DNA from: Erysipelotrichaceae bacterium
Lineage (GTDB): Bacteria; Bacillota_I; Bacilli_A; Erysipelotrichales; Erysipelotrichaceae
NCBI GenBank assembly: GCA_030533035.1
Contig: JAUNJW010000010.1
Span: 1 to 17,206 of the forward strand
Direction: 5' to 3'
Length of the DNA: 17,206 bases
A model generated the notes under the pieces. It ran no database searches. It was not told the origin of the DNA and saw only the letters and a list, made by a program, of their open reading frames with translations. This document shows, in pieces, positions 5,947 to 13,492 of the stretch. The position numbers and the translations under genes are program-made. Each line of letters begins with the position of its first letter. Within the stretch, counting starts at the first letter, position 1.

Positions 5947-5949
5947 ATT

Positions 5950-6158
5950 ATATGGATAGTTTCAGGTGCAGCGAGGCACAGGAATTGTGTCTGGTCGCTG
6001 TGAAAAGGGAAACAGGTGAGAATCCTGTACGAACCCGTCACCGTATCCGGCGGGTGGATGCCATTATGCCATTGGGAAACTGAGAAGGCGTGCATCCGCA
6101 ATGCGCCGCAAGCCGGGAGACCTGCCTGGAGCTGTGCGATAGTCACGGGATCCTGACT
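5950..6158 (+). ncRNA. Cobalamin (vitamin B12) riboswitch
   Basis: The conserved core is present: AGGGAAACAGGTGAGAATCC (6007-6026), CCCGTCACCGT, the GCCATTGGG/GAAGGC stretch, and the B12 box AAGCCGGGAGACCTGCC (6110-6126). After the core, AGTCA/TGACT (6141-6158) forms a hairpin whose loop CGGGATCC can pair with ATCC in the loop of the CCCG/CGGG arm (about 6033-6054), the expected kissing-loop contact. It precedes the DUF4430 and S-component genes, so binding of adenosylcobalamin should switch off B12 uptake. The outer boundaries are approximate because the closing stem is hard to fix by eye. Confidence 0.96.
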
Positions 6159-6242: not shown

Positions 6243-6261
6243 GTTTGAAAGGGGAAAGAAA

Positions 6262-6690
6262 ATGAAAAACAAAAAACCGCTGATTTGGCTGATTGGCCTG
6301 ATCGCTGCCGCCCTGATCATGTTCGGCTTATGGAAGGGACTCTCACCCAAACCCACCGAAGGTTCCAAATCTGTCACCGTGGAAGTTGTTGATGACAAGG
6401 GCGAAACAAAAACATACAAAGAAAAAACCGACGCGGAATATCTCAGCCAGCTGATGGATGAGATGAAGGCGGACGGTGACTTTGCCTATGAGGGCAGCAC
6501 CTCTGAATATGGTTTATACATTACTTCCATCAATGAGATCACACCGGACTATGAGAAGGACGGCGCTTACTGGTCCATCTATGTCAATGGTGAATACGGT
6601 CAGTACGGCGCTGACCAGCAGCCGGTGACAGACGGTGATACCTACCGCTTCGCCTACGAGGTTTACGTACCTGAAGAGCCGCAGAAATGA
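6262..6690 (+). CDS. DUF4430 (transcobalamin-like C-terminal domain) membrane-anchored protein
   Basis: A 142-residue protein with an N-terminal hydrophobic segment (about 7-23, signal anchor or signal peptide) and an extracellular domain. The region from about 95 to 135, YWSIYVNGEYGQYGADQQPV then DGDTYRFAYEVY, is typical of DUF4430, a domain related to the C-terminal domain of transcobalamin and intrinsic factor. ATG at 6262 is chosen over the in-frame start at 6184: it follows GAAAGGGGAAAG, while 6184 lies inside the riboswitch terminators. It overlaps the S-component gene by 4 bp (ATGA) and is controlled by the cobalamin riboswitch. I infer that it helps capture B12 or a related corrinoid at the cell surface for the adjacent transporter component. 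No lipobox cysteine was seen. Confidence 0.85.
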   Translation: MKNKKPLIWLIGLIAAALIMFGLWKGLSPKPTEGSKSVTVEVVDDKGETKTYKEKTDAEYLSQLMDEMKADGDFAYEGSTSEYGLYITSINEITPDYEKDGAYWSIYVNGEYGQYGADQQPVTDGDTYRFAYEVYVPEEPQK

Positions 6691-7205
6691 CGGATAACGG
6701 ACTGGCGGTCCGCAGGATTGTCTATATTGCGGTCATGACCGCAATCATGGAAGCTGCGAAAATCGCCCTGAATCCGGTCCCGAATGTTGAGCTGATCACG
6801 CTTCTGGTCATTGTCTTCACAAAGCAGTTCGGCTGGAAAATGACTCTGCCGGCTGTTCTGATTTTCGCGTTCATTGAATGCACGTACTGGGGATTCGGGA
6901 CCTGGTCAATTGTTTATTTTTACATGTGGCCGCTCCTGGTTCTTCTGACCCATCTGAACAGGAACGCAGAATCAATCTGGAATTACACGGTTCTTTCGGC
7001 AGCCTTCGGGCTGACCTTCGGCGCATTCTGCTCCGTTGTCACGCTGATCGCCGCCGGACTGAAAGCAGCCTTCGCGTGGTGGATCGCCGGGATTCCCTAT
7101 GATCTGGTCCACGGAATATCCAATTTCATCATCTGCCTGCTGTTATTCAGACCTCTGAATAACGCGCTGGAAGCTCTGAAACGTGTCAACGGGATGTCAT
7201 GGTGA
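6687..7205 (+). CDS. ECF transporter S component, probably for vitamin B12
   Basis: A 172-residue, very hydrophobic protein with about five to six membrane segments. The N-terminal AVMTAIMEAAKIALNPVPNV resembles the first helix of energy-coupling-factor S components, which gives the contact with the shared T subunit, and NVELITLLVIVFT follows as in this family. S components bind one vitamin and need EcfA, EcfA' and EcfT, encoded elsewhere. Substrate assignment rests on context: the gene is the second in a cobalamin-riboswitch unit, coupled by ATGA to the DUF4430 gene, and it converges on a B12-dependent methionine synthase. A CbrT-like role is likely, but precursor corrinoids or cobinamide are also possible. 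The stop codon lies inside the terminator stem. Confidence 0.85.
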   Translation: MTDNGLAVRRIVYIAVMTAIMEAAKIALNPVPNVELITLLVIVFTKQFGWKMTLPAVLIFAFIECTYWGFGTWSIVYFYMWPLLVLLTHLNRNAESIWNYTVLSAAFGLTFGAFCSVVTLIAAGLKAAFAWWIAGIPYDLVHGISNFIICLLLFRPLNNALEALKRVNGMSW

Positions 7206-7226: not shown

Positions 7227-9632
7227 TCAATTCTGCTCAAAGACACTGTCGGCATATCTGACGGAAGCCATGGCGTCTTTGCCGTAGGCGTCCGCGCCGA
7301 TCTGATCGGCATATTCCTGGGTCATGACGGCACCGCCGACGACAACCTTTGTGTCTGGCTTCTTCTCACGTAAGAGTTTGATTGTTTCAGCCATTGAGAC
7401 AACTGTTGTTGTCATCAGGGCGGAAAGTCCGACCAGCTTTATATCCTCTTTGATCGCTGTGTCAACGATCACTTCCGGATCCACATCCTTGCCGAGATCA
7501 ATGACTTCGTAGCCGTAGTTTTCCATCATGACCTTGACGATGTTCTTGCCGATATCATGGATGTCGCCTTTGACCGTCGCCAGAATAATTCTGCCTTTGA
7601 CTGTCTGGGGAACAGCAGACATGCTTTCCTTGATGACCGCGAAAGCAGCCTTTGCGGCGTCGGCGCTCATCAGCAGCTGCGGCAGGAAGGTGGTGCCTGC
7701 CTCAAATCCTCTGCCGACTTCATCGAGGGCGGGAATGATTTCGCCGTCAATGACTGACAGCGGGGAAATGGCTGTTTTCAGAGCTTCCCTGGCAGCTTCA
7801 GCGGCAGGGGAGGCAAGGCCCCTGACAATGCACTGGTGCAGGGACTGTCCGGCTGCCGGAACCTGGCCGGCTTCTGCCTGCTTTGCGGAAACCGGTGTAT
7901 TGACTTCGGCAGTGCCGGCATAGGCTGCGATGTAATCTGCGCAGTTGGGATCCTTTGCCAGCAGGGCGTTGGACGCTCTGTAGGCGGCCATGATCTGGGC
8001 GTTGTTCGGATTGATGATCGCCGCCGACAGTCCGTTCTGCATCGCCATGCTCAGGAAGTGGGCGTTGACAATGCCTCTCTGGGGCAGACCGAAGGAAATA
8101 TTGGAAACACCGAGGATTGAGCGCACATGCAGCTCATCCCGGCATCTTCTGACTGTTTCCAGTGTGCATAAGGCAGACTTCGGATCGGAAGAGACAGTCA
8201 TGCACAGGCCGTCGATGACGATATCCTTCTGAGGTATGCCATAGGAAGCCGCAGCCTCCAGGATCCGTTTCGCGATGGCGATTCTGCCGTCCGCAGTTGA
8301 CGGGATTTCCTTATCCAGGCACAGGCCCACGAGAACACCGCCGTATTTGGCGACCAGCGGCATAATACTGTTCAGAGTTTCCTCTTTGCCGTTGACCGAG
8401 TTGATCATCGGCTTGCCGTTGTAAATCCGCATCGCTCTTTCCAGAGCGGCAGGGTCGGAAGAGTCCAGCTGCAGCGGAAGTCCGCACACAGCCTGCAGTT
8501 TCTTCACGACAGTTTCCATCATGGCCGGCTCATCAATCTCGGGAAGACCGACATTGACGTCCAGGATATGGGCGCCGGCGTCCTCCTGTTTCAGGCCTTC
8601 GGCGATGATGTAGTCAATGTTATTGTCACGCAGCGCCTGCTTGAATGCTTTCTTGCCGGTCGGGTTGATTCTTTCGCCGATGACGGCGCAGGTATCGCCG
8701 ATTTCAACTGCCCGGTTATAGGAGCTGACAACCGTTCTGTTTTTCTGTGTGGCAGGTCTGAATTTCTTTTTCGAAACAGCTTCGATGGTCATGCGGATAT
8801 GCTCGGAAGTTGTTCCGCAGCAGCCGCCGACACACTGCACGCCGATCTGCGCGATTTCCGCCATCAGTTCCGAGAATTCCTCCGGCTGCACCGGATAGAA
8901 GGTCATGCCGTGCCTTGTGACAGGCAGGCCGGCATTGGGATTGACAATGACCGGGATGGAAGAGGCAGCCGCAAGCCGCTGAATGATCGGCACCATTTCT
9001 CTCGGGCCGAGGGAACAGTTGACGCCGAGGGCGTCCACCCTGAGTCCTTCCAGCATCGCCACGACTGCTTCCACGGAGGCGCCGGTCAGCAGTTTTCCGT
9101 TTGCGTCAAAGGTGACAGTAATGCATACAGGCAGATCGCAGCTTTCCTTCGCCGCAAGAACCGCTGCCTTGGCTTCATAGCTGTCATTCATGGTTTCGAT
9201 CAGAACCAGGTCAGCCCCGGCTTCGGCGCCGGCTCTGACAGCTTCCGAGAAAATATCCACCGCTTCTTCAAAAGAAAGATCGCCGAGCGGCTCAAGCAGC
9301 TTTCCGGTAGGGCCGATATCAATGGTGATATAAGCGTCTTCCCGTCCGGCTTCAGTCCTCGCTTCTTTTGCCAGTTCCACCGCGGCAGTGATGATTTCTT
9401 TGACATTGTCCGGATAATGGAGGCGGTTGGCTCCGAACGTGTTGGCATTGAACACATCAACACCGGCATTCAGGTAGCCTTTGTATAATTCTTTGATTCT
9501 GTCAGGATATTTCAGATTCCATGTCTCCGGCAGCTCACCGCCGCGCAATCCCATTTTCTGCAGGATTGAACCGGTGCCGCCGTCAAAAAAGAGCCATTCT
9601 TTTCCCAGGCGTTCGAGGAATTCCTTTTTCAT
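7227..9632 (-). CDS. metH: Cobalamin-dependent methionine synthase, core without reactivation domain
   Basis: 801 residues. Transfers methyl from 5-methyl-tetrahydrofolate via cobalamin to homocysteine; cytoplasmic. Domain order: homocysteine-binding barrel (about 1-290) with zinc ligands Cys206 (GVNCSLGP), Cys271 and Cys272 (GGCCGTT); pterin-binding barrel (about 310-565, starting VIGERINPTG); helical cap (about 595-680); cobalamin-binding Rossmann domain (about 680-800) with the cobalt ligand His692 in GDIHDIGK. E. coli MetH is about 1227 residues because it carries a C-terminal AdoMet-binding reactivation domain; here the protein ends after the B12 domain. The missing function is supplied by the gene just upstream, which overlaps by ATGA. 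AGGAGG stands before the ATG. It is the last gene of the met operon and faces the B12 uptake genes. Confidence 0.97.
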   Translation of the reverse strand: MKKEFLERLGKEWLFFDGGTGSILQKMGLRGGELPETWNLKYPDRIKELYKGYLNAGVDVFNANTFGANRLHYPDNVKEIITAAVELAKEARTEAGREDAYITIDIGPTGKLLEPLGDLSFEEAVDIFSEAVRAGAEAGADLVLIETMNDSYEAKAAVLAAKESCDLPVCITVTFDANGKLLTGASVEAVVAMLEGLRVDALGVNCSLGPREMVPIIQRLAAASSIPVIVNPNAGLPVTRHGMTFYPVQPEEFSELMAEIAQIGVQCVGGCCGTTSEHIRMTIEAVSKKKFRPATQKNRTVVSSYNRAVEIGDTCAVIGERINPTGKKAFKQALRDNNIDYIIAEGLKQEDAGAHILDVNVGLPEIDEPAMMETVVKKLQAVCGLPLQLDSSDPAALERAMRIYNGKPMINSVNGKEETLNSIMPLVAKYGGVLVGLCLDKEIPSTADGRIAIAKRILEAAASYGIPQKDIVIDGLCMTVSSDPKSALCTLETVRRCRDELHVRSILGVSNISFGLPQRGIVNAHFLSMAMQNGLSAAIINPNNAQIMAAYRASNALLAKDPNCADYIAAYAGTAEVNTPVSAKQAEAGQVPAAGQSLHQCIVRGLASPAAEAAREALKTAISPLSVIDGEIIPALDEVGRGFEAGTTFLPQLLMSADAAKAAFAVIKESMSAVPQTVKGRIILATVKGDIHDIGKNIVKVMMENYGYEVIDLGKDVDPEVIVDTAIKEDIKLVGLSALMTTTVVSMAETIKLLREKKPDTKVVVGGAVMTQEYADQIGADAYGKDAMASVRYADSVFEQN

Positions 9633-10282
9633 ATGTCCTCCTGTTCACGGTACTCGCAGGTCGGCGACATCGCGCATGCCGCGCAGCCTGTTTCCTGTGT
9701 TTCTTTCTTTTCCGCTGAAAGGCCGATGAAGGCGGTCACGGATTTGAAAGGCGTCATCAATAATGAACTGTTGAGAGTCAGGCCGATGGCTTTCGGCAGA
9801 TTGATCAGGGAAAAGATCAGCTTCTGGTTTTCCAGAAGAAGATCGCCATAGCCCGGTGAAAAGCGGGGATGGCAGAAATATCCTTTTTTCTCTGCCTTCT
9901 GCCGGATCTCTTCATTGACCTCATCGCAGACCTCCTCAACCATGGCGGCTGCGCATGCCTGCAGGACAGCGGCTTTGGACATGGAGAGGATGCTGTATTT
10001 CTGAATCAGACGGTCGACATCGGCTCCCAGGGTCACCGCCATAATGACGATCCGCGTGCAGCCATCCAGGTTTTTCGCCAGATTCCGGCTTTGAATCACA
10101 TTGCCTTCAATCACGGGAAAACCGTTCTCCCAGCCAAGGGGAAACTTTTCATAGATATGCCTGGGCTTCGCGGCGTCCTCAAGCAGGGCGACACACTCTT
10201 CAATGAGCGCATCAGCGGTTTCATCGCTGTCTGCCTTCATCATGCCGAGATAGCGTCTGATTTCTTTTCTGGATATGTTCAT
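9629..10282 (-). CDS. Stand-alone methionine synthase activation (reactivation) domain protein
   Basis: 217 residues. It resembles the C-terminal activation domain of MetH, which binds AdoMet and remethylates cobalamin after oxidation. The signature is at about 140-147, RFSPGYGD (equivalent to the RxxxGY AdoMet-binding segment of E. coli MetH), followed by LENQKLIFSLI, IGLTLNSSLLMTPFKSV and AFIG. The C terminus has a small cysteine cluster (Cys200, Cys203, Cys209, in GCAACAMSPTCEYR) absent from E. coli MetH, which may bind a metal or cluster for electron delivery. It is coupled by ATGA overlaps to metF before it and metH after it. Together with the 801-residue MetH it forms a split version of the enzyme. 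The AdoMet role is by family; the cysteine role is inference. Confidence 0.92.
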   Translation of the reverse strand: MNISRKEIRRYLGMMKADSDETADALIEECVALLEDAAKPRHIYEKFPLGWENGFPVIEGNVIQSRNLAKNLDGCTRIVIMAVTLGADVDRLIQKYSILSMSKAAVLQACAAAMVEEVCDEVNEEIRQKAEKKGYFCHPRFSPGYGDLLLENQKLIFSLINLPKAIGLTLNSSLLMTPFKSVTAFIGLSAEKKETQETGCAACAMSPTCEYREQEDI

Positions 10283-11139
10283 TTAATAATTTCCGAAAGG
10301 TTGTCCATGATGCCTTTTGCGACATCGGGCTTGTTCATGGAATAAACATGGATATGCTTTATGCCGTTGGCGATCAGGTCGATGATCTGCTCGGAGGCAT
10401 AGACAATGCCGGCCTGTTTCATGGCAGCCGGATTGTCCCTGAATGTATCGACAATCGCCCGGAAGCGCTCGGGTACATTTGTGCCGGAAAGGGCAACCGA
10501 GCGGTCGAGCTGCTTCGCGTTTGTGATCGGCATGATGCCGGGAAGGATCGGTACACGGATCCCGGCCTCTCTTGCCCGGTACAGGAAGTTATAGAAGATA
10601 TTGTTGTCAAAAAACATCTGGGTTGTCAGGAAATCACAGCCGGCTTCCACCTTGGTTCTCAGATTCCTGAGGTCCTGATTCTTGTTGTAGCTTTCAATAT
10701 GTCCTTCCGGATAGCAGGCGCCGCCGATGCAGAGGTCCGCCTGTTTCTTGATATAGGCAATCAGGTCGCTGGCGTGGGTGAAGTCTGTTTCTGCTTCACC
10801 GCTTGCCGGCATGTCACCGCGCAGAACCATGATATTTTCAATGTTCTCACAGCGATACTGGGCAATCATCCGGTCTGTGTGTTCCTTTGAGGAGCCGACA
10901 CAGGTCAGATGCGGCATGACGGGAACGCCGGTATCCTTCTTCAGGTCCGCTGCCAGTTCAGCCGTAAAACCGGCCGTGGAGCCGCCGGCGCCGTAGGTGA
11001 TGGACATGAAGCTGGGATGCAGTTCAGCGATATCTTCCGCGGCTGTTTTGACCGCTTCGAACCGTTCCGCTTTTTTCGGCGGGAAAACCTCAAAGGAGAG
11101 GGTGATTTTATCCTGTGCGAGCAGTTCACTTATCTTCAT
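10279..11139 (-). CDS. metF: 5,10-methylenetetrahydrofolate reductase
   Basis: 286 residues, the bacterial MetF length. Reduces methylene-tetrahydrofolate to methyl-tetrahydrofolate, the methyl donor for MetH; flavoprotein with a TIM-barrel fold. Visible family marks are SFEVFPPK near the N terminus (the Glu matches the catalytic Glu of E. coli MetF), [20 protein letters not shown] and QMFFD. The start has AGGAAGG upstream. It overlaps the end of metA by 14 bp and the activation gene by 4 bp, so all four genes form one translationally coupled unit. Nothing unusual in the catalytic regions. MetF in some anaerobes needs a partner such as MetV; none is present here. Confidence 0.97.
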
Positions 11140-12094
11140 GGCTGCGTACCTTCCTGTGCTTTCTCTCTTCCCTGAGCTTCTGCACTTCGCTCAGATCATA
11201 CGGTGTCTCCTGATAGACGAAGTAGTTCAGCCAGTTGGAGTAGAGCAGGTTGGCGCTTGACCGCCATGTGCATACCGGCCGCTTTGTGTCATCGTCATTG
11301 GGATAGTAGTTGTACGGCACATGAATCGGCAGACCCGCGTTTTTATCGCGGAGATATTCTTTTTCAAGGGTATCGGGATCGTATTCACTGTGGCCTGTGA
11401 TAAAGATCTGGCGGCCTTCATCAGTGGAAATGGCATAGACGCCGGCTTCCTCACTTTCAGCGAGAATCTTCAGTTCGGGTGTGTTGATGATTTCCTCACG
11501 GCTGATTCCGGTGTGACGGGAATGGGGCACCATAAAGGTGTCGTCGAATCCTCTGAACAGGATCGAGCCCTTGTGGGTCACCTTATGCGGGAAGACGCCG
11601 AACATCTTTTCCGGCAGGGGAATCTTGTCAATGCCATAGTGATAATACAGGGCTGCCTGGGCGCCCCAGCAGATGTGGAAGGTGCTGTGGACATGGGTGG
11701 TGGACCACTCCATGATGTCGCACAGTTCGTCCCAGTAATCCACTTCCTCGAAAGGCAGGTGTTCCACCGGCGCGCCGGTGATGACCATGCCGTCAAAGTT
11801 TCTGTCTTTGACATCATCGAAGGTCTGGTAGAAGGCGACCATATGCTCAATCGGGGTATGCTTGGGCTGTCTGCCGCTGACAGTCAGCAGCTCCATTTCC
11901 ACCTGGATCGGGGTGTTGCCAAGCAGTCTGGCCAGCTGTGTCTCAGTCACGATTTTCAGCGGCATCAGGTTCAGGACAAGAATGCGCAGGGGACGGATCT
12001 GCTGGCTTTCAGCTCGGGTTTCCCGCATGACAAAGATGTTCTCGGACTCAAGAACACCGGCGGCAGGAAGTTCATTCGGAATTCGGATCGGCAT
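11126..12094 (-). CDS. metA: Homoserine O-acyltransferase, predicted acetyl-CoA type
   Basis: 322 residues. Activates homoserine for sulfur incorporation, the first committed step of methionine synthesis; cytoplasmic. Catalytic Cys142 is in [13 protein letters not shown], with His235 and Glu237 in ITGHSEYD. Residue 111 is Glu ([17 protein letters not shown]). Glu at this position marks acetyl-CoA users such as Bacillus cereus MetA, while E. coli, a succinyl-CoA user, has Gly. So O-acetylhomoserine is the predicted product, despite the common annotation as succinyltransferase. AAAGGAG lies 9 nt before the ATG. First gene of the operon, downstream of the attenuator-like leader at 12112-12243. 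No sulfhydrylase gene is nearby, so the next step is encoded elsewhere. Confidence 0.96.
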
Positions 12095-12111
12095 AAATAT
12101 GGTCTCCTTTC

Positions 12112-12150
12112 AAAAACATCCCCGATGCGGGACGGCACCGGGGTATGTTT
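12112..12150 (-). terminator. Leader terminator (attenuator) upstream of metA
   Basis: On the minus strand AAACAT, a bulged A, CCCCG and GTGC pair with GCAT, CGGGG and ATGTTT: about 15 bp with one bulge around a CGTCCC loop. A run of five T (12116-12112) overlaps its 3' edge, 17 nt before the metA start. Its 5' arm shares bases 12150-12143 with the 3' arm of the competing inverted repeat, so the two folds exclude each other. Confidence 0.8.
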
Positions 12151-12178
12151 ATATTTTTCTTAATGGTTATAAACATAC
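12143..12178 (-). promoter_or_regulatory. Candidate antiterminator hairpin in the metA leader
   Basis: A perfect 11-bp inverted repeat: GTATGTTTATA (12178-12168 on the minus strand) and TATAAACATAC (12153-12143), with a 14-nt loop holding the leader-frame stop TAA (12162-12160). The 5' arm is the last codons of the leader frame, so a ribosome reaching the stop would mask it. The 3' arm overlaps the terminator's 5' arm. Being near-palindromic DNA, it could instead be a protein operator. Confidence 0.7.
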
Positions 12179-12243
12179 AAAAGGATGCCGGTACGGTGTG
12201 CCGTGATGCGCATTCGTTTTTGCATGAAAGCTTTTCTGCCCAT
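12160..12243 (-). CDS. Putative methionine leader peptide (27 codons)
   Basis: A short open frame starting with ATG at 12243 and ending with TAA at 12160, preceded by AAGGA (12253-12249) five bases from the start. Methionine is at codons 1, 7 and 11 (begins MGRKAFMQKRMR, ends LLYVYNH), rich for 27 residues. It sits 10-20 nt after the predicted met promoter start and its end overlaps the 5' arm of the antiterminator-like repeat. It is too short for usual gene calling. Inferred role: ribosome stalling at Met codons when charged tRNA-Met is scarce leaves the repeat free to form, prevents the terminator, and lets metA-metF-activation-metH be expressed. No leader peptide of this sequence is known to me; coding is supported by position and ribosome binding site only. 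Confidence 0.6.
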   Translation of the reverse strand: MGRKAFMQKRMRITAHRTGILLYVYNH

Positions 12244-12269
12244 AACAATCCTTATGTGTGTTACCAACT

Positions 12270-12298
12270 ATATTAAAGGCTGATGCATGTAAAATCAA
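12270..12298 (-). promoter_or_regulatory. Promoter of the met operon
   Basis: Minus-strand TTGATT (12298-12293), a 17-bp spacer and TAATAT (12275-12270). The start would fall near 12263, about 10 nt before the leader peptide ribosome binding site. Each hexamer matches the consensus at four of six positions, so an activator may be needed. Confidence 0.55.
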
Positions 12299-12322: not shown

Positions 12323-12538
12323 CTGAAAACAGGGAAAATACGGAGAATGCGGGCAAGTGGATTAACCGATTACTGCATATAGGTTTAATATATAGCTGAA
12401 ATACATCGTTCAGGGTTATGTTATTCTCTGTCAAAACAGCAGAACCGCCGCTTTCTCCATATCCTGTCCATCAAACAAAGGGCAGGAATATCCGCCTTTC
12501 CGTCATAACGAATATTGTCCTACAGGAGGTTTGCAGGC

Positions 12539-13492
12539 ATGACAATTCAGCAGATATATTACGCGATCACAGTTTCCGAATGCGGCTCCATCAACAAGGC
12601 CGCCGAGATGCTCTATATTTCACAGCCTTCCCTGACCAGCGCCATCCAGGAGCTGGAGAAGTCGATCGGCATCCAGATCTTCAACCGCACCGGCAGGGGT
12701 GTGACAGTCACCAATGACGGCCGTGAATTCCTCCTGTATGCCAGACAGGTTTACAGCCAGTACGAGCAGCTCAGAAGCCGCTACAGCGGCGACGAAAAGA
12801 TCCGCAAGAAGTTCGCTGTCAGCACCCAGCATTATTCTTTCGCGATCAAGGCGTTTGTCGAGATGGTCAAAAAGTTTGATACGACCGAGTATGATTTCGC
12901 GATCATGGAGGAGCGCACAAAAGAAGTCATTGCCGATGTGGCCGGAATCAGAAGCGAGATCGGCATCCTTTACCTGTCCGATTTCAACCGCTCCGCCATC
13001 ACAAAGCTGCTGCGCACCAACAGCCTTGAATTCCATCACCTGATCGACTGCCAGGCCTATGTCTATATTTATAAAGACCACCCGCTGGCGAAAAAGAAGT
13101 CAATCACCCTTTCCCAGCTGCAGGAATACCCCTGCCTGCAGTTTGACCAGGGCGACAGCTCCTCCTTCTATTTCGCTGAGGAAATCCTGAGCACCAATGA
13201 GTATCCCAGGATTATCAAGGCCAATGACAGGGCCACCATGCTCAACCTCATGATCGGCCTCAACGGCTATACACTCTGCTCGGGAATCATCTGTGAGGAA
13301 CTTAACGGTGATGATTACATCGCGGTGCCGTACAAGGAGGATGAATCCAATCCCAACAGCCACATGGAGATCGGCTATATCACCAAAAAGAACAGTGTCC
13401 TTTCCGAAGTCGGTTCCATGTATATTGAGGAACTGAAAAAGTATCTTTCCACGGTTACTGCCGGCAGGAAAAAGAAAACAGCCGCAAGGTGA
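12539..13492 (+). CDS. LysR-type transcriptional regulator, candidate met operon regulator
   Basis: 317 residues. The N-terminal winged helix-turn-helix (about 1-60) reads MTIQQIYYAITVSECGSINK then AAEMLYISQPSLTSAIQELE, a textbook LysR DNA-binding domain. The rest (about 90-300) is the two-lobed effector-binding domain. ATG at 12539 is chosen because AGGAGG (12524-12529) precedes it by 9 bp; the in-frame TTG at 12515 lacks a site and would add non-family residues. It is divergent from metA across 444 bp that hold dyad sequences. LysR regulators usually control their divergent neighbour, so homocysteine-, O-acetylhomoserine- or sulfur-responsive control of the met operon is likely. The ligand cannot be read from sequence. 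Confidence 0.93.
   Translation: MTIQQIYYAITVSECGSINKAAEMLYISQPSLTSAIQELEKSIGIQIFNRTGRGVTVTNDGREFLLYARQVYSQYEQLRSRYSGDEKIRKKFAVSTQHYSFAIKAFVEMVKKFDTTEYDFAIMEERTKEVIADVAGIRSEIGILYLSDFNRSAITKLLRTNSLEFHHLIDCQAYVYIYKDHPLAKKKSITLSQLQEYPCLQFDQGDSSSFYFAEEILSTNEYPRIIKANDRATMLNLMIGLNGYTLCSGIICEELNGDDYIAVPYKEDESNPNSHMEIGYITKKNSVLSEVGSMYIEELKKYLSTVTAGRKKKTAAR

Follow-up and report, generated by a model that had tools for sequence, protein, structure and literature searches.

We propose that positions 12298-12095, on the minus strand of the 17,206-nt stretch of Erysipelotrichaceae DNA analysed here (the window), very probably form a trp-type ribosome-mediated transcription attenuator through which the metA-metF-(MetH activation)-metH operon answers to charged elongator tRNA-Met. 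SAM riboswitches, Met T-boxes and DNA-binding regulators are the usual explanations for methionine control in Bacillota, and leader-peptide attenuation is usually described for amino acids other than methionine. In the proposed mechanism, RNA polymerase would transcribe the leader as a ribosome translates a short peptide. When Met-tRNA is short, the ribosome would wait at an internal Met codon, leaving bases 12190-12133 free to fold into an antiterminator that would take 12139-12133 from the 5' arm of a terminator, and transcription would continue. When Met-tRNA is plentiful, the ribosome would cover 12190-12168 in the window's own genome (G000) and in one of four other species of the same genus (G068), or would stop just before the element in the remaining three (G004, G050 and G043); the antiterminator would then be blocked, and the terminator at 12143-12120 would end transcription before metA. 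That transcription really terminates here, that ribosomes stall on the Met codons and that cells respond physiologically we infer from sequence and predicted folds. Such an attenuator would read elongator tRNA-Met, yet fMet starts translation of the leader, so cells would have to starve elongation before initiation; the puzzle that this poses is that the attenuator could work only if elongator Met-tRNA runs short ahead of the initiator.

Anatomy of the leader and its operon

The leader begins with a sigma-70-type promoter (12270-12298) composed of a -35 box TTGATT at 12298-12293, a 17-nt spacer and a -10 box TAATAT at 12275-12270, which aligns across all five species, the -10 box of G050 reading TAAGAT. 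A Shine-Dalgarno (SD) sequence, AAGGA, lies at 12249-12253, and its counterparts stand 5-7 nt 5' of the start codon in each of the five leaders. It precedes a frame of 27 codons plus a stop (12160-12243; ATG at 12243, stop at 12162-12160) with the translation MGRKAFMQKRMRITAHRTGILLYVYNH*, in which codons 7 and 11 (12225-12223 and 12213-12211) are internal Met, the second of them within an invariant CGA-AUG at 12216-12211. Promoter, SD sequence, frame and both Met codons are present as the initial annotation of this DNA had claimed. Two internal Met in 26 codons are not significant when taken alone (P 0.16), and it is conservation and the wider class of leaders described below that carry the claim.

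Within and beyond the frame lies an antiterminator hairpin (12133-12190), whose inner helix is the perfect 11-bp inverted repeat that had already been noted (12178-12168/12153-12143) and whose outer helix pairs CGGCAUC at 12190-12184 with GGUGCCG at 12139-12133. The folding energy of the hairpin, -19.4 kcal/mol, compares with a mean of -7.7 for shuffles (z -4.9), and none of 200 shuffles was equally stable. The intrinsic terminator (12112-12143) has its 5' arm at 12143-12135, its 3' arm at 12128-12120 and a T5 run at 12116-12112. Its stem had been given as 15 bp; hairpin and T5 run are there, and the stem is a 9-bp core (12143-12120, with the tail ATGTTTTTGA) that reaches 14 pairs around one bulged base when AAACAU/AUGUUU is included (39-nt fragment folded). 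This structure folds at -21.1 kcal/mol (z -3.8; 0 of 200 shuffles equally stable). The two folds had been said to exclude each other through the 11-bp repeat, which by itself does not suffice: its overlap with the terminator core is a single base, and the folded fragment 12243-12100 contains them both. Exclusivity stands by way of the outer helix, which had been missed, because its bases 12139-12135 are part of the terminator 5' arm. The attenuator interpretation is supported as largely right, with its anatomy corrected. A further suggestion, that leader codons and terminator bases pair in a third state, holds for the window in that 12204-12198 can pair with 12138-12132, and was rejected as a conserved state, the pairing being worth -12.7 kcal/mol here vs -6.5, -8.1, -4.8 and -2.0 kcal/mol in the other four species.

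A different use of the same RNA would be a translational switch, in which CAUCCUUU (12187-12180) acts as an anti-Shine-Dalgarno element blocking the metA SD sequence, with or without termination. The element does pair with the metA SD sequence in the lowest-energy fold of the G000 and G068 fragments, but, of 27 SD sequences, 8, 6, 16, 16 and 23 paired with it as strongly as that of metA (G000, G068, G004, G050 and G043, respectively), and the hairpin with its T5 tail in the window has the standard form of a terminator, so that we regard this explanation as highly improbable. Pairing of the leader's own SD sequence with CAUCCUUU (-13.3 to -14.7 kcal/mol in four species, -8.8 kcal/mol in G043) was likewise considered and rejected, because the SD sequences of other genes equal it (5, 3, 7, 7 and 15 of 27).

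The operon behind the leader comprises, all on the minus strand, metA of the homoserine O-acetyltransferase type (11126-12094; NF047918, 492 bits, cut-off 460.5), metF for methylenetetrahydrofolate reductase (10279-11139; TIGR00676, 307 bits, cut-off 293.7), a gene for a separate MetH activation-domain protein (9629-10282; PF02965, 28.3 bits, cut-off 25) and a metH-like gene for a cobalamin methionine synthase in which PF02965 finds no match (7227-9632). Divergently, on the plus strand, lies a gene for a LysR-type regulator (12539-13492; PF00126 and PF03466 within 12551-13489), its ATG start having been picked by eye within the open reading frame 12515-13492. The order lysR, metA, metF, activation gene, metH is common to all five species, with metH of G050 split over two frames. 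It is conceivable that there is no attenuator and that the divergent LysR protein sets expression at the promoter, hairpins and frame being relics or chance. The constant position of lysR beside metA in all five species is in keeping with this, as is a palindrome, ATACAA-N6-TTGTAT at 12322-12305 (minus strand), directly before the -35 box, which is a candidate site for the LysR protein. Yet in five of five species shuffles fall far short of both hairpins, the frame survives indels, and the two layers could act together, as CodY and Rli60 reportedly do at Listeria ilv-leu (PMC5864092); regulation at the promoter alone thus appears very unlikely.

The palindrome is partly kept in G068 (TACAA-N6-TTGTA), and by eye none was seen in G004, G050 and G043. 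The spacer of the promoter contains ATGCAT in all five leaders (12289-12283 in the window); ATGCATG occurs in the window at chance level (4 found vs 4.6 expected). In other members of the genus (L010, L013, L014, L015, L017 and L021) two ACATGC..GCATG-like boxes were seen by eye before metA, possibly the operator of a shared regulator. At the far end of the operon a cobalamin riboswitch (RF00174, 106.6 bits) at 5947-6143 on the plus strand adjoins the cobalamin-dependent metH; it precedes a DUF4430 gene (6256-6687) and a gene for a small protein without a family match (6687-7205).

Conservation in the genus and the effect of ribosome position

Searches found MetA in 26 of the 70 genus genomes and 62 of the 272 family genomes. 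Exact copies of the motif GGCATYCTTTYGTATGTYT number five across the 70 genus genomes and all precede metA, their carriers being the window and its four nearest orthologues (MetA 89-90% identical), so the leader is limited to five of the 70 genomes and to metA. Only exact matches are counted, because matches with up to two mismatches (42, in 29 of the 70 genomes) resemble those of a reversed control (33). No such leader was seen by eye in 18 other metA regions of the genus and 27 others of the family, many of which sit directly behind the coding end of another gene, and a DNA search with the G004 leader brought up no new leader that we could recognise among the matches listed.

Alignment of orthologous metA leaders had been proposed as the check on the attenuator, and all four of the nearest keep an SD-preceded Met frame, an antiterminator and a terminator with compensatory changes. 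The SD sequence, the in-frame CGA-AUG, the 2:3 hairpin (z -3.0 to -5.7) and the 3:4 hairpin (z -3.4 to -5.1) are retained in five of five species. The leaders fall into two subgroups: in subgroup A (G000 and G068) the frame has 27 codons and passes through the 5' arm of the antiterminator, and in subgroup B (G004, G050 and G043) it has 16-17 codons and stops 1-5 nt before that arm. The position of the stop codon thus differs between the subgroups, and the same switch logic is kept. CGAATG stands in frame 0 in all five leaders, shuffles with a suitable open in-frame start amounting to 2.0-5.8% per genome, and the frame persists despite indels among the species. In the terminator, a C-G pair of G000 vs U-A of G068, and G-C to A-U plus C-G to U-A changes in G004 vs G043, are compensatory; such changes were read from the sequences by helix position, with no column statistics, because MAFFT misaligned the inner helix between the subgroups. 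A covariance model of the antiterminator built from G000 and G068 found G004 and G050 at E about 3e-6, missed G043 and gave no convincing other site in the 272 family genomes (best other E 0.006). The weak matches of this model in other genera of the family were L197 (G079:C1:573437-573493; E 0.006) and L198 (G269:C28:81567-81625; E 0.012). The U-tracts of G004 and G050 are weak, the G068 leader has one internal Met, and the independent leaders of this lineage perhaps number three.

The influence of ribosome position was examined by folding only the RNA downstream of the ribosome, codon by codon, with the transcript ended before the 3' arm of the terminator. When an internal Met codon occupied the A site, the fraction of the terminator 5' arm that was paired upstream came to 0.70/0.70 in G000, 0.67 in G068, 0.87-0.88 in both G004 and G050, and 0.77/0.36 in G043, the value of 0.36 belonging to Met14, which lies in the partial zone. 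At the stop codon the fraction was 0.02-0.32 (G000 0.02, G068 0.07, G004 0.32, G050 0.32 and G043 0.17). The contrast drawn in the initial annotation between a stall at Met7 or Met11 and arrival at the stop codon finds its counterpart in the model, where the predicted switch point comes after all internal Met codons in five of five leaders, with the last Met of G043 in the partial zone. The scan does not single out Met: all codons before the switch act alike, Met or not. In G043 the antiterminator forms in a shifted register, and the strict outer helix is absent there in every state. Compared with 400 shuffles, the size of the switch was unusual in G004 and G043 (0 and 2 shuffles as large) and not unusual in G000 and G068 (39 and 54).

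A second calculation, in which pairs were allowed to span the ribosome, agreed for G004 and mostly for G050, where the strict outer helix reached only 0.25 at Met10; in G000 and G068 the strict outer helix persisted at the stop codon (0.48 and 0.99). Spanning pairs are discounted on steric grounds, by inference. When the full terminator was included, it won in most ribosome states, and antitermination must therefore be kinetic, by trapping, if the attenuator is to work; estimated barriers were 1.5 to 14.8 kcal/mol. With no ribosome, the strict antiterminator helix formed in G000 (0.83) and G068 (0.99) and not in G004, G050 and G043; by a broader measure the terminator arm was sequestered in all five (0.63-0.77). 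A 1:2 helix between the Met codons and the antiterminator 5' arm was predicted in G004, G050 and G043 (-22.5, -21.3 and -18.1 kcal/mol), where 5, 2 and 29 shuffles per 1000 were as strong, compared with 420 in G000 and 444 in G068; it is above chance in subgroup B only, where the arrangement is that of trp leaders, subgroup A being no better than chance.

Known attenuators and other methionine control

In leader-peptide attenuators of the trp, his and leu type, a translated leader contains codons for the end product and is followed by mutually exclusive antiterminator and terminator structures. The window resembles them in its promoter, in a leader (here predicted to be translated) with codons for the product and in its exclusive antiterminator and terminator; it differs in reading methionine, an amino acid that also serves initiation, in having few control codons and in lacking a significant 1:2 helix. 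The leaders of G004, G050 and G043 resemble trpL in their layout, their Met codons falling within segment 1 and their stop codon between segments 1 and 2. The SAM-I (S-box) riboswitch RF00162, which controls methionine and SAM genes in Bacillota, differs in binding SAM directly, with no peptide, and has no match in the window leader. The Met T-box senses tRNA-Met charging by antitermination; it would thus share its signal with the attenuator, and differs in binding the tRNA directly, again with no peptide. The claim that the leader holds neither a SAM riboswitch nor a T-box is upheld by an Rfam search at E up to 5, which gave no riboswitch or T-box match in the leader and no SAM or T-box family anywhere in the window.

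Elsewhere in the genus, SAM-I riboswitches were found in 41 of the 70 genomes at E up to 0.001 (27 of them above the Rfam cut-off); none was found in the window genome, a draft of 407 contigs that is 84% complete. They precede metK in G004, G043 and G068, the score in G068 (43.4) being just below the cut-off of 44.4. With SAM-I before metK and the attenuator before metA, a single cell would monitor SAM and Met-tRNA through separate leaders; if our reading is true, a codon-reading attenuator adds a Met-tRNA sensor beside the SAM sensor before metK in these three species.

No methionine leader-peptide attenuator was recognised in the literature searched, an incomplete search that leaves novelty provisional. 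Within Bacillota, one parallel is Rli60 of Listeria monocytogenes, described as an experimentally tested ribosome-mediated attenuator of ilv-leu acting with CodY (PMC5864092); it is alike in combining a short peptide rich in codons of the pathway with a DNA-binding regulator, and differs in its experimental testing and in serving branched-chain amino acids, and no sequence relation is claimed. In Firmicutes, short frames containing histidine codons led to the prediction of histidine leader peptides ahead of hisZ/hisS (PMC2965389); these are similar as leader peptides outside Proteobacteria and Actinobacteria and differ in the amino acid. For methionine operons of Actinobacteria, no conserved structure upstream is reported (PMC1262725).

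Methionine-rich leaders in other lineages

A first scan for an SD-preceded frame with at least two internal Met followed by a terminator-like hairpin was positive at three of 78 metA loci. A Met filter was then applied to the 350 nt before metA; it asked for a frame of 8-45 codons behind an SD sequence, with internal Met at three or more positions and a share of at least 12%. It was passed by 4 of 79 loci from named records, 5 of 16 from Synergistaceae, 1 of 23 from the window's genus (G004) and 5 of 60 from two Clostridia families, for which sixty further metA upstream regions gave 0 of 60; there were 238 rows in all, in which at least five loci were counted twice. The window leader itself does not pass. 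At least four internal Met were found in 12 of the 238 rows (nine genomes); L270 reaches this number only if its longer start is used. For the sets of 79, 60 and 60 loci, shuffled sequence produced 0.0 per set, and the reverse strand produced one passing frame, of 40 codons with five internal Met, in the set of 79 and none in either set of 60. Among 193 stretches upstream of other genes, 2 passed, both with three internal Met.

The leader peptides so found, in which Met enrichment is strong, include MLSRSMMMMRMYMPMGMCTIRHGLNRDAAAPQ, MRAVFGIRRMMMCMPMGMCMMSATRPCRSPW, MNAFDSRMMMCMSMGMCMPSPVLPPRSPL, MTRRIVNMCMAGMLRQPA and MSKNSYTMMLMCCMMMRGSAFGVYNGSSRP, to which that of L258, MTRNRRSMCMGRRPKQPA, was added by eye. 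Outside the window's lineage they are of the MMMCMPMGMCM type (Clostridia; before metA and a metN-like gene), the MTR..MxM..QPA type (Clostridia) and the MMLMCCMMM type (Synergistaceae). A pattern search of 345 genomes of one Clostridia family returned ten matches, of which L287-L289 were new, L295-L296 had already been found and the other five look like other sequence. L287 precedes metA, and L288 and L289 precede a MetN-like gene, the best model for the gene downstream of L289 being TIGR02314 at 365 bits, below its cut-off of 499.7. Between the four leader types we saw no sequence relation; what they share is Met codons and then a terminator ahead of a methionine gene. Rfam has no match within any of the 13 wider-class leaders. 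The support that the wider class lends is by convergence and not by homology.

In 9 of these 13 leaders the folding model sequesters the terminator 5' arm when the last Met codon occupies the A site (0.55-0.88) and releases it when the ribosome is at the stop codon (0.00-0.31). In the four Synergistaceae leaders the value already falls along the Met run, from 0.63-0.74 at its first codon to 0.35-0.41 at its last, and is 0.29-0.46 at the stop codon. Against 200 shuffles of the stretch between the last Met and the terminator, the drop was unusual in L233, L239 and L288 (three shuffles as large in each) and L289 (one). L270 was borderline (18), and no unusual drop was seen in L227 (32), L257 (31), L258 (52), L287 (39) and the Synergistaceae leaders (68-172). 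The leaders of L233, L288 and L289 have 7-8 internal Met. As a class, the Met-rich frame with its terminator is firm; the exact RNA switch is firm in some leaders only. Taken together, we think it rather likely that attenuators built on methionine leader peptides constitute a class for which Rfam release 15 has no model, with at least four unrelated-looking types (in Erysipelotrichaceae, two Clostridia families and Synergistaceae) and several origins, controlling synthesis through metA and probably metN-like uptake. Leaders with up to nine internal Met codons would offer a direct reporter for shortage of elongator vs initiator Met-tRNA.

The leader might instead read arginine, or the general rate of translation, by way of the rare CGA before the invariant Met. 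CGA-AUG is invariant in the five species, no other Arg codon is as rare as CGA (12216-12214) in the window genes that were counted (4 of 231), Arg outnumbers internal Met by 15 to 10 when the five peptides are summed, and the MTR-type leaders of Clostridia are rich in Arg (3-5 each), two of them with a CGA. The operon, however, serves methionine synthesis, the most codon-rich of the leaders elsewhere (the MMMC and MMLMCC types) stand out by Met rather than Arg, and in G004, G050 and G043 the 1:2 helix pairs CGAA with UUCG, which offers an RNA reason for its conservation; a response to arginine or to translation rate is accordingly most unlikely in our estimation. Alternatively, the nascent peptide might sense a sulfur metabolite such as SAM in the ribosome tunnel, its arrest setting the RNA switch. 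Some lineages do conserve residues beyond Met, as in SAFGVY.GSSR of Synergistaceae and M(P/S)MGMC of one Clostridia family. Against this, the Met codons are the feature common to the leader types and the remaining peptide differs, and the Synergistaceae tails overlie the antiterminator arm, so that RNA pairing could explain their conservation. We judge such peptide arrest to be very unlikely and continue to favour the reading of Met codons by the ribosome.

In the Synergistaceae leaders L207, L208, L210 and L212 the common tail after the Met run is SAFGVY(N/Y)GSSR(P/S), and once the last Met codon is in the A site, the RNA that remains free has a folding energy of -24 to -28 kcal/mol. A raiA RNA (RF03072) was found downstream of metA in L036, L257, L258 and L270, from genomes with MTR..MxM..QPA leaders, and also by metA in L044, a locus in which the Met filter picked out no leader.
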